Source: Thalassolituus maritimus (GTDB lineage Bacteria > Pseudomonadota > Gammaproteobacteria > Pseudomonadales > Oceanobacteraceae). Taken from it: a DNA stretch of 55,847 bases. Below, piece by piece: positions 53,052 through 55,847 of this stretch. A program made the translations under genes and the position numbers. Numbering within the stretch: position 1 is the first letter of the stretch; each line of letters opens with the position of its first letter. The stretch covers positions 1 to 55,847 of the forward strand of contig CAJWBH010000022.1 in NCBI GenBank assembly GCA_913019975.1, in the 5' to 3' direction. The notes beneath the pieces were generated by a model. That model was not told the DNA's origin, made no database searches, and was given only the letters and a program-made list of their open reading frames with translations.

Positions 53052-54095
53052 TCAGAACAGATTCAGCTGCTTTTCACTGATCTGAGGAAAGCGCCCACCA
53101 ATACCTAACAGGCGTACAGGCTTGTCTTCCCGTTTCAGAGCCTGAAGCAATAACCGCTGAAAACCCTCGGGCGTCGCCGATTCCTGAATATCGGCCATGG
53201 TGGTCTGAGTGAAATCAGCGAACTTCACTTTTACGAAAGGCGCCAGCGCTTCTGGCTTCCAGGGGGTTCGGCTTACCCTCTCCTGCCACTTCTCGTATAG
53301 AGCCGAGACCTCAGCCACGCACTCTTCATGGCGGGTCTTATCCTGAGCATAGGTACGCTCGACACTGACGGACTTGCGCTCACGATCCATACTCAACGGT
53401 CGGTTATCCTGTCCCCGACAACGCTGATATAAATGGACACCTGAGCGGCCAAAACGACGTACCAGTTCATTGAGATCCCAGCTTCGGGCGTCGTCGCAGG
53501 TTTCGATACCCAATACCTTTAAGCGCGCCTGAAACGCCGGGCCAATACCGGGAATACGGCCAACAGGTAACGCCTTCACGAATTCATCCACTTCTTGAGG
53601 CGGAATCATCTTCTGGCCATCGGGCTTATTCCAGTCACTCGCGACCTTCGCCAGAAACTTATTCGGTGCACCGCCCACCGACACACTGATACCTAACTCG
53701 TGCCTGACGCGCTCACGAATCTCAGCCGCTACCTGACTCGCCTGCTGATCCGGGTCTAACTCAAGATACGCCTCATCAACCGATACCTGCTCAAGCAAGG
53801 GTGAATAATCACGCAGGATATTCATCACCTGAGCAGAGACCTCACGGTACAGCTCCATACGACCACGCAACAACACCAGATCAGGGCAAAGACGACGCGC
53901 CGTCGCCGTCGCCATCGCCGAGCGAACCCCAAATACCCGAGCCGGATAATTACAGGTCGCGATAACACCGCGCCGGTCAGATTCACCACCAATCGCAATC
54001 GGCACATCACGCAGATGCGGCTGCTCACGCATCTCAACCGCCGCGAAAAAGCAGTCACAGTCGATATGCAATACCTTACGGCCAGGCTCACTCAT
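53052..54095 (-). CDS. dinB: DNA polymerase IV
   Basis: Y-family translesion polymerase. The start at 54095 (MSEPGRKVLHIDCDCFFAAVEM) gives 347 residues. Catalytic Asp12 and Asp107/Glu108 (VSVDEAYLEL) are present; the little-finger region ends in the beta-clamp-binding-like EKQLNLF. An in-frame upstream start at 54176 would include the LexA box in the coding region and is rejected. The C-terminal helix-hairpin region contains GRIPGIGPAFQARLKVLGI. Confidence 0.95.
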   Translation of the reverse strand: MSEPGRKVLHIDCDCFFAAVEMREQPHLRDVPIAIGGESDRRGVIATCNYPARVFGVRSAMATATARRLCPDLVLLRGRMELYREVSAQVMNILRDYSPLLEQVSVDEAYLELDPDQQASQVAAEIRERVRHELGISVSVGGAPNKFLAKVASDWNKPDGQKMIPPQEVDEFVKALPVGRIPGIGPAFQARLKVLGIETCDDARSWDLNELVRRFGRSGVHLYQRCRGQDNRPLSMDRERKSVSVERTYAQDKTRHEECVAEVSALYEKWQERVSRTPWKPEALAPFVKVKFADFTQTTMADIQESATPEGFQRLLLQALKREDKPVRLLGIGGRFPQISEKQLNLF

Positions 54096-54143
54096 GGGTA
54101 CGTCACTCCTGCCCCAAACGACGGGCAAATGCTCATGACGAAA

Positions 54144-54163
54144 TACTGTATACATAAACAGTA
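54144..54163 (-). promoter_or_regulatory. LexA (SOS) box of dinB
   Basis: TACTGTATACATAAACAGTA matches the CTGT-N8-ACAG SOS consensus with the usual flanking TA/TA. It lies about 50 bases upstream of the dinB ATG. Confidence 0.85.
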
Positions 54164-54176
54164 TTCTTGGCAACAC

Positions 54177-54462
54177 CGGTAAATTCAGTGCTCATTTGCA
54201 AGATCAGAACAAAACGAGCATACACACTATGAAACCTATCAATAAGAAACACCCCATTGAAATCAGTTAGTTGCAAATTCTGTAGGGGTGATAGTGTGCG
54301 GAATGTAAAGCCTATGAAGGCGTGTAAACGCGCATGCTCACTTTCACACTGGCAAAAGGCGTCGCCTCAGGCACTTTTCATAGTGGTGACAGGGGGTTAT
54401 GCTCGAAACATCGAAAGGAAGCGGAGCGTCAAAACGCGCACGCTCACAAATAAACTAATGAA
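54177..54462. other. Non-coding flank between dinB promoter and IS element
   Basis: No supported gene. It holds a near-perfect 16-base direct repeat (AAACGCGC, then AT or AC, then GCTCAC) at 54326-54341 and 54432-54447, a 7-base inverted repeat CTATGAA/TTCATAG (54312-54318, 54377-54383) and a 6-base hairpin GAGCGT/ACGCTC (54424-54445). The composition looks unlike the genes before it. Confidence 0.5.
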
Positions 54463-54475
54463 ATGGACACCCCTC
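54463..54475. repeat. Left inverted repeat of the IS
   Basis: ATGGACACCCCTC, exact reverse complement of 55730-55742. Confidence 0.9.
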
Positions 54476-54515
54476 CCTTACACTGAAACTTCAGTTTCTT
54501 CGCGGGAGATGGTTT

Positions 54516-55547
54516 ATGGAACGGCTAACAGTGATAGGAATCGACCTGGCAAAATCGGTGATTCAGATCCATGGCAGTGATAGCAGAGGAAAATGCTTAA
54601 TTCGTAAAAAGCTTCGACGTAATCAGTTGTTACCATTTCTGGGTAAGTTACCTCGTTGCTTAATCGGGATGGAAGCTTGTGGCGGTTCTCATTACTGGGC
54701 TAGAGAAATAAAGCAGCTTGGCCATGATGTGAAATTAATACCGCCGCAATTTGTGAAGCCTTACGTAAAAACGAATAAAACTGACGTTGCGGATGCAGAA
54801 GCAATCTGTGAGGCGGTTGATCGGCCAACAATGAGGTTTGTGCCAATAAAAGGTCCAGAGCAACAAGCAGTACTGCTTTTGCATCGAGAGCGGGAAGGGT
54901 TGATAAAGGAGCGGACGGCAGTAATTAATCGCATACGCTCATCCTTTTCCGAATTTGGAGTGGCGATTCCTGCAGGACCGAAGCGGTTGAGGCAATGGTT
55001 GTCAGATTCATATGGAGATGTTGAAAATGACTTGCCATCAACACTTAATCGCCTGATGCTTCGGATGATCGATCGGTTAAATTATATTGAATCGGAGATC
55101 GGTGATCTTGATAAGGAAATCAATGATCAAAATAAGTCTGATGAACGCTGTAAACGATTAATTGAAGTTCCTGGTGTTGGTCGGTTGGCAGCTTCGGCGA
55201 TAGTAGCAAGCGTCGGTGATGCGAAAGAATTTCGATCAGGGCGAGAATTCGCAGCTTGGTTGGGGCTGGTCCCCAGACAATATTCAAGTGGCGGGAAGCA
55301 AAATTTACAAGGCATCAGCAAGAGAGGTGATGCTTATATTCGTAAGATGCTGATCCATGGTGCCAGAGCCGTAATTCGTCATATGAACAGGAATAATGCT
55401 CCGGTAGATTGGCTTGAAGATCTTATGAGGCGTCGTCACCACAATGTAGTCATCGTGGCGTTGGCGAACAAACTAGCAAGAACGATCTGGGCTTTGCTGA
55501 GCAAGGAACAGAGTTACAAAAGATATGAAGACACCGTAGTTGCGTAA
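54516..55547 (+). CDS. IS110-family transposase
   Basis: 343 residues. DEDD-type N-terminal catalytic residues Asp10 (GIDLAK), Glu53 (GMEACGGSHYW), Asp90 and Asp93 (KTDVADAEAI). The C-terminal Transposase_20-type region starts EVPGVGRLAASAIVASVGDAKEF and contains RQYSSGGKQNLQGISKRGD with the conserved Ser (257/258). Intact. Works with a guide RNA in characterised relatives. Confidence 0.93.
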   Translation: MERLTVIGIDLAKSVIQIHGSDSRGKCLIRKKLRRNQLLPFLGKLPRCLIGMEACGGSHYWAREIKQLGHDVKLIPPQFVKPYVKTNKTDVADAEAICEAVDRPTMRFVPIKGPEQQAVLLLHREREGLIKERTAVINRIRSSFSEFGVAIPAGPKRLRQWLSDSYGDVENDLPSTLNRLMLRMIDRLNYIESEIGDLDKEINDQNKSDERCKRLIEVPGVGRLAASAIVASVGDAKEFRSGREFAAWLGLVPRQYSSGGKQNLQGISKRGDAYIRKMLIHGARAVIRHMNRNNAPVDWLEDLMRRRHHNVVIVALANKLARTIWALLSKEQSYKRYEDTVVA

Positions 55548-55729
55548 GTGAAATCAGATGTCTAACAGGTAGGACCGCAATCCGGAAACTCTGTTCCTAA
55601 CTACGTTCTTCGGGAACGATAAACTGATAAGAACCGGGTTGGCGAAGTTCATCAAGGATCTGGCCCTAGGCCAATTGGAATCCGAATAGATGGCTGCACT
55701 ACACCAAAGGCAGATTTCGCTTGCACAAT
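55548..55729 (+). ncRNA. Candidate seekRNA / bridge RNA of the IS1111-type element
   Basis: Non-coding between transposase stop and right inverted repeat, where IS1111-group elements encode their guide RNA. It contains clear hairpins: CGTTC-TTCGG-GAACG (near 55604-55618) and TGGCC-CTA-GGCCA (55661-55673). ATAAACTGAT (55619-55628) matches the left flank ATAAACTAAT (54450-54459) with one difference, and ATAGATG (55686-55692) equals the right junction ATAGATG (55741-55747). These may be the guide segments. Confidence 0.5.
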
Positions 55730-55742
55730 GAGGGGTGTCCAT
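55730..55742. repeat. Right inverted repeat of the IS
   Basis: GAGGGGTGTCCAT, exact reverse complement of 54463-54475. Confidence 0.9.
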
Positions 55743-55757
55743 AGATGTTAAGCTTGG

Positions 55758-55792: not shown

Positions 55793-55847
55793 ATGATTAA
55801 ATCATTCCGTCACAAAGGACTGAAACGGTTCTACTCGACTGGCAACA
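55793..55847 (+). CDS. higB: HigB-type toxin (partial, cut by window end)
   Basis: ATG at 55793 reads MIKSFRHKGLKRFYSTGN to the last base of the window. This is the conserved start of HigB/RelE-ParE-type mRNA interferases (IxSFxHKGLxxFxxTG). The rest of the gene and the expected higA antitoxin lie beyond the window. No ribosome site precedes the ATG. Confidence 0.75.
   Translation, partial: MIKSFRHKGLKRFYSTGN

Follow-up and report, generated by a model that had tools for sequence, protein, structure and literature searches.

The window, a stretch of 55,847 nucleotides of Thalassolituus maritimus DNA, contains close to its right-hand end an IS1111-type insertion sequence (IS) whose 3′ non-coding region (NCR) very probably encodes a four-segment guide RNA that directs insertion into the attI site of an integron. 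The evidence read from the DNA consists of the element and its ends, the matches between guide and flanks together with their specificity across the family, covariation in the RNA, the attI and cassette context, and a clade of related elements. IS1111 elements that insert in attC are already known. What appears to be new is attI as a target, since we found no report of an attI-specific IS1111 in the titles, starts of abstracts and passages among the matches listed.

The element, its ends and its transposase

The element occupies 54456-55745 on the forward strand (1290 bp) and, judged by its sequence features, is a complete IS1111-type insertion sequence. Its ends were placed by the 7/3 rule, under which 7 bp lie outside the left repeat and 3 bp outside the right repeat, as described for the extensions of IS1111 elements (PMC11187229). 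The left terminal extension TAATGAA (54456-54462, 7 bp) is followed by the left subterminal inverted repeat ATGGACACCCCTC (54463-54475), and this has a perfect 13-bp partner (13/13 in inverted orientation) in the right subterminal repeat GAGGGGTGTCCAT (55730-55742), which is followed by the right terminal extension AGA (55743-55745, 3 bp). IS1111 elements have subterminal repeats of 11-13 bp with 7/3 extensions, and this arrangement is of that kind. The same ends are found in the copy in genome G035 (94% at the amino acid level). Joining the two flanks gives AATAAAC|TGTT (the bar marks the junction), which is the sequence of uninterrupted sites, and there is no target duplication. Among 28 aligned homologous empty sites, from which the window's own was left out, 18 read AATAAAC|TGTT.

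The transposase gene (54516-55547, forward strand) encodes a DEDD protein of 343 aa, with the motif GLVPRQYSSG and with D10, E53, D90 and D93, which we take to be the catalytic residues on the basis of alignment and recall. This is as expected of an IS1111 protein (DEDD RuvC-like, 330-350 aa, with a GL-P----S(t)G motif). It contains PF01548 and PF02371, both of which are IS110-family Pfam domains, and also matches NCBIfam NF033542. At E 0.01 two solved sequences are related to it, ISCro4 and IS621. The gene is followed by a long NCR (182 bp, 55548-55729), as in the IS1111 group; elements of the IS110 group have their NCR upstream of the transposase gene and lack long inverted repeats, whereas here the NCR is downstream and the repeats are of 13 bp. 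At E 1e-118, a protein search of the class (369 genomes) matched the window alone, and the window's own genome (G000) carries one copy only.

Predicted guide segments and RNA fold

The first-pass annotation had pointed to two stretches in the NCR that repeat the DNA at the two junctions. Both are present: ATAAACTGAT (55619-55628) agrees with ATAAACTAAT (54450-54459) at 9/10 positions, and ATAGATG (55686-55692) with 55741-55747 at 7/7. They had been described as matches to the flanks, but they straddle the ends of the IS and do not lie wholly in the flanks. On the left ATAAAC is target and TAAT is the left end of the IS, and on the right ATAGA is the right end of the IS and TG is target.

The predicted guide (seek or bridge) RNA covers 55560-55731 on the forward strand, which is the extent given by the covariance model discussed below (169 bits, the window being a match by construction), and it contains four candidate segments, all on the same strand. 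The first, T (GTCTAACAG, 55560-55568), would pair with the top strand of the target, CTGTTAAGC, at 8/9 positions with one G.U pair; its match is poor in the decayed copy of genome G001. The second, B (ATAAACTGATAAG, 55619-55631), matches the left flank in sense orientation and continues past the junction. The joined empty site is AATAAAC|TGTTAAGC, and NCR positions 55619-55631 agree with it at 12/13 (compared with ATAAAC|TGTTAAG). The core of B, ATAAACTG (55619-55626), agrees with the left flank and, once the empty site is joined, reaches over its junction; the B segment is also found in loci L089, L096 and L127. The other two are putative donor guides: TTCAT (55648-55652), which is antisense to ATGAA in the left end (54458-54462), as the right donor guide, and ATAGATG, which is sense to the right end plus the first two flank bases, as the left donor guide.

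The chance of such matches was estimated from 20,000 dinucleotide shuffles of the window NCR. The 12/13 match to the joined site has P = 0.00035, the exact 8-mer ATAAACTG P = 0.0048 and exact ATAGATG P = 0.010, so that the matches are rarer than the one in five to ten each that had been guessed at first. The T match is not significant alone (P = 0.24). These words were however chosen post hoc, and because the matching segments had been picked after looking, a family-wide comparison was relied on in preference to the shuffles.

For this comparison, 125 loci with a transposase hit yielded 93 with both ends defined automatically, and 74 elements once NCRs more than 85% alike had been dropped. The target and end windows of each element were sought in its own NCR, and the result was set against windows from elements with a different sequence (swapped). 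Sense matches peak at target positions -7 to +3 and antisense matches at about -2 to +10, with the swapped level reached further out. The B segment scores at least 8/9 in 22/74 elements with their own windows, against 3.1% of 5082 swapped pairs, and T does so in 35/74 against 2.4% of 5118. The word represented by ATAGATG, composed of right end plus flank, reaches 7/8 in 67/74 (6.9% of 1532 swapped), left flank plus left end is matched in 66/74 (8.1% of 3210), and the left-end antisense match is found in 38/74 (14.8% of 332). Within the attI clade described below (n = 13), the corresponding numbers are 4 for B, 6 for T, and 13 each for the right end and for left flank plus left end, and the left-end antisense match reaches 7/8 in 3 members. 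By this comparison both of the matches noted at first are family-wide guide features. ATAGATG had been regarded as spurious at one stage, being mostly inside the IS, and this judgement was reversed by the swapped-pair test; the five IS-internal bases of the right end alone do not discriminate (74/74 own, 94.3% swapped).

One alternative is coincidence: the IS would be an ordinary one, and its hairpin-rich 3′ region and its flanks would have two short words in common by chance. The single matches in the window are indeed short, and that of T is unremarkable when considered alone, but ATAAACTG and ATAGATG occur together in exact form in only 1 of the 20,000 shuffles, the own and swapped results differ over 74 de-duplicated elements, and the guides of the clade change with the target. 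We consider coincidence barely credible.

The segments seen across the family resemble those of a bridge RNA, which has four, two for the target and two for the donor (PMC11208160), in the reversed order of the IS1111 seekRNAs, in which the match to the top strand lies 5′ of that to the bottom strand (PMC11187229). Both target strands are matched in the window, with T (55560-55568) before B (55619-55626), and the order T, B, right end is seen in 45 of the 49 elements, among the 74, in which all three score. This architecture is not itself new, because a published analysis already predicts guide RNAs for 93% of IS1111 elements, many of them having a multiloop with potential donor bases (PMC11208160).

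The 3′ region had also been called hairpin-rich. Alone, the window NCR folds little better than shuffled sequence (z = -1.56; 16/200 shuffles as good), but covariation supports a fold over 13 sequences, namely the window element and 12 relatives. In this consensus of 34 pairs, 97.5% of cells are paired compared to 89.6% in shuffled data, and 12/34 pairs change on both sides with pairing kept, compared to 6.4 when shuffled; pairing falls to 26.5-41% when the 3′ strand of the helices is shifted by 1-3 columns. The count of further pair types is not above that of the shuffles (126/500 as high). The two-sided changes are mostly in the main stem of the target loop (helix 2; 55576-55644, forward strand), where 55576-55585 pairs with 55634-55644 and 7/10 pairs change on both sides. 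The B segment begins directly 3′ of a conserved hairpin and within the loop of this stem. Helices 5 and 6, which carry the donor segments, are nearly invariant and so give little covariation support.

A folding match to known IS1111 guide RNAs had been proposed as a check. An Rfam search with the sequence returned no family at gathering scores, but the covariance model R1, built from the window and its 12 relatives, matches 67/67 of the other IS1111 NCRs given to it, at full length and with a weakest E of 0.049, as expected of the conserved fold of an IS1111 seekRNA. These 67 come from 80 elements outside the clade, the 13 left out being 10 near-copies together with L103, L111 and L136, which are not near-copies. 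The proposal of an IS1111-type guide RNA with target-matching and donor-matching segments is thus supported by the family-wide test and by the covariance model. There were two extra model matches, one to a known second copy (L104) and one to a presumed second copy (L075); the latter, at 181-354 of a Mesorhizobium locus, is about 2.8 kb upstream of the transposase and is presumably another IS1111 copy.

The attI target and its clade

The left flank (54202-54455, forward strand) is a leader that ends at the attI-type site, with a divergent dinB-like gene upstream. It is 79% identical to positions 358-612 of contig C24 from the same genome, where the sequence runs uninterrupted through the site as AAGAAAC|TGTTATG. 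A search with the leader (54100-54456) gave 34 hits in 11/44 genomes of the family, and 28 of them extend to the junction, where the query ends; past the core, the aligned sites diverge. The attI variants in G000 are AATAAGC and AAGAAAC. The dinB-like gene beside the leader encodes a Y-family polymerase (53052-54176), and a LexA-box-like sequence is seen by eye at 54144-54163; contig C24 has, also by eye, a similar LexA-like box without the polymerase gene.

On the right of the element, the integron core site GTTAAGC (55747-55753, forward strand) starts the first gene cassette; on contig C17, the attC-like stretch that follows higBA begins with the reverse complement of this core, GCTTAAC. The window's last 55 bp (55793-55847, forward strand) hold the start of the cassette gene higB and are identical to the end of C17, which carries the remainder: a gene pair for a HigB-like toxin (PF05015) and an HTH antitoxin (higBA). 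C17 was joined to the IS contig through this 55-base overlap and not by the assembly. An exact overlap of this size is as at an assembly k-mer break, and the cassette may occur in several contexts.

The same arrangement is found at the other IS-bearing sites, where an integron core makes up the seven bases that follow the junction T. The core of the first cassette occurs again downstream, reverse-complemented, in 14/16 sites, compared to 39/232 swapped combinations; the misses are L213 and L218, and the hit in L004 is at the end of the locus, with no attC to see. As in an integron, such sites precede a cassette, and the core of that cassette pairs with the next attC. There are 17 attC-like pairs downstream, or 0.29 per kb against 0.07 in shuffled sequence and 0.02 upstream, under loose scoring (threshold 8), and the core-pairing test is the better evidence. 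An integron integrase gene (intI) lies 207-395 bp upstream of the IS, in divergent orientation, in 7/19 regions (three full-length and four partial hits), namely those of L005 (Shewanella), L058 (Marinomonas), G004, G359, G150, G221 and G395. The integrase of G000 itself is on contig C23, beside CACTAATAAGC|TGTTAAATG. Integron integrases cut at G^TT. Judged by this context, the target is an integron attI, entered two bases before the cutting point of the integrase and between the leader and the first cassette (higBA).

The first core is also found again downstream in 20/28 uninterrupted leader sites (L174-L201). The attI leader is dispersed, with four in the closed genome G028 (at about 0.84, 1.31, 1.54 and 3.12 Mb) and intI at 1.62 Mb; the two leaders of genome G004, both of which end at attI, are 87.6% alike over 299 bp.

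Relatives of the element occur at the same kind of place in 14 other genomes. The order-wide DNA search for copies scored at most two candidates per genome among the matches listed, and the numbers of copies are therefore at least those given. The first-pass annotation had suggested examining whether the guide-matching flank bases recur in other copies, and in the closest ones they do. The G035 copy has flanks AATAAAC| and |TGTTAG, the G042 copy has lost its left end and has |TGTTAG on the right, the decayed G001 copy has |TGTTGG, and the flanks of a G027 copy, which are on two different contigs, are AATAAGC| and |TGTTATG. Distant relatives (57-63% at the amino acid level) are found in G004 (two copies), G123, G150, G221, G288 and G359, and also in Pseudohongiella, Shewanella, Marinomonas and Oceanospirillum; their right flanks begin TGTTA and their left flanks are TATTAAAA, TATACAAA or TATAAAAA. 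In all, TGTT is present at 17/19 clade right ends read, one of which is a second right end in G359 (L130:235), as for an element that enters a specific site in fixed orientation, and 15/17 left ends read are attI-type by eye. In these counts L134, which is the same insertion as L058, is counted once, and L137 and L142 are without right flanks.

The recurrence is not complete. One G027 copy (on C18) interrupts a coding sequence, where the site is near-cognate but is not attI, with AACAAGC| on the left and |TGGTTA on the right on another contig, the two being paired by us (L129 at 1500; L206 at about 1500); this suggests that mismatches to the guide are tolerated. A copy on C28 of G395 also lies outside attI, with TTAAATATAAAA| at its left end and no leader; its IS is identical to the one that G395 carries at an attI-type site. 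Finally, a decayed relic in G042 has |TTTAGG on its right. In G042 (L096 1500-2070; L208) a deletion reaching the leader has removed one left end, and with the relic this amounts to insertion turnover. In G359 the second right end (L130 235; L210 about 5022) is also at |TGTTAGG, about 1 kb upstream of the main copy and beyond a partial intI.

In the transposase tree, the 13 elements that have both ends group as a single clade (100/98). In the alignment, guide bases -4 to +1 equal the target in 13/13, while the target varies between AAAC, CAAA and AAAA, and the guides of the clade change along with their attI variants. The B match is exact over about 6-8 nt, with 4/13 reaching 8/9, and guide position -5 is mismatched in six members (L004, L005, L058, L130, L133 and L135). 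In 11/13 the first base of the left-end segment changes together with the base that closes the left extension (TAATGAA with TTCAT, TAATGAG with CTCAT), the misfits being L135 and L004.

These observations bear on the alternative that the transposase itself recognises attI, by sequence or structure, the words in the NCR being left over from the ends or serving as regulatory copies of them. As attI is common to the clade, protein and target are correlated too. Within the clade, however, guide bases vary with the attI variant, and in 67 elements this RNA architecture is combined with other targets. In related systems, the NCR RNA of ISEc11 is reported to be essential and reprogrammable, and for ISPa11, ISKpn4 and ISPst6 the NCR RNA is reported to be recovered together with the purified transposase (PMC11187229). 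Recognition by the protein is thus highly unlikely, and guidance by the RNA is the reading followed below.

Proposed mechanism and relation to known systems

If the RNA is made and pairs with DNA as predicted, the right half of the target would be bound by T as its antisense, and B would act as sense to the left half plus the junction; of the two IS ends, the left would be matched in antisense by TTCAT and the right in sense by ATAGATG. Target and circular donor would in this way be held together by the RNA, and the DEDD transposase would join them at AATAAAC|TGTTA, between the leader with the left arm of attI and the first cassette, two bases before G^TT. The would-be circle junction reads TTGC.., a 17- or 18-base spacer and GATAAT in 13/13 clade members, and by analogy with characterised relatives joining of the ends in the circle would create a promoter for the transposase gene and the guide RNA. 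In the window as it stands, predicted promoters (2, shuffled mean 3.1) and terminators (2, shuffled mean 1.6) are not above shuffles.

Since the IS splits attI and sits between the leader and the first cassette, loss of cassette capture or of leader-driven expression is expected after insertion, as a prediction from position. Whether the element now blocks or silences the integron, with attI split and the leader promoter parted from the cassettes, is less certain, and we regard it as somewhat less than an even prospect: its position favours this, but different first cassettes are found beside the IS, and exchange may continue at the right boundary or may predate insertion. A wider reading, for which the balance is close to even without quite reaching it, is that a single RNA-guided clade is programmed on attI, follows its variants and fills dispersed platforms, switching capture or expression. 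If so, an RNA-guided element would share a recombination site with a tyrosine recombinase system and compete with it. attI is the capture point of new genes, including resistance genes, and an RNA-guided element homing on it would be a natural switch of cassette capture that can be put to the test. Within one transposase clade there is moreover a natural series of guides and targets from which to learn how IS1111 bridge RNAs pair, in their donor segments as well.

Of the known systems, that of ISEc11 and ISXne4 is alike in its 7-bp and 3-bp extensions, an NCR 3′ of the transposase gene, T before B, and natural retargeting by a change of guide (PMC11187229). Its target is a short linear sequence unrelated to integrons and its guidance has been shown experimentally, whereas that of the window element is a prediction. 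The bridge RNA of IS621, from the IS110 group, likewise has four guide segments, but it is located in the left end, and repeats in that group are only 2-3 bp (PMC11208160); the window element has its RNA in the right end, repeats of 13 bp, and the reversed IS1111 order of segments.

The nearest comparison is with the IS1111-attC group (ISKpn4, ISPst6, ISPa25 and ISPa21), whose members belong to the IS1111 family, have a seekRNA in the 3′ NCR and use an integron site as target. They insert at the attC ends of cassettes, whereas the attI clade inserts upstream of the first cassette. Such attC elements are well established (PMC11187229, PMC11616780, PMC9229058), and the GTT core on the right side of the target is common to attI and attC, so that the window element might be one of them that hit attC or an attI/attC hybrid, and not an attI specialist. 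The left flanks argue against this: those read either consist of attI leader sequence or have intI at a distance of 207-395 bp, and no attC arm was seen among them. We therefore think this explanation very improbable indeed, and retain attI as the specific target. Five IS110-type insertions, none in attC, are described in Shewanella cassette regions, and the portion of that text consulted does not mention insertion in attI (PMC9229058).

Flanks resembling the start of attC are found elsewhere in our tree, with L046, L054 and L055 together and L011 apart, and the attI clade is separate from them in this tree, which is drawn without ISKpn4, ISPst6, ISPa25 and ISPa21. By eye, these loci (L046, L054 and L055 from the Marinobacter group, L011 from Gallionella) read TAAC|GC...TTCAGCGG, and they are a possible attC-targeting comparison group.
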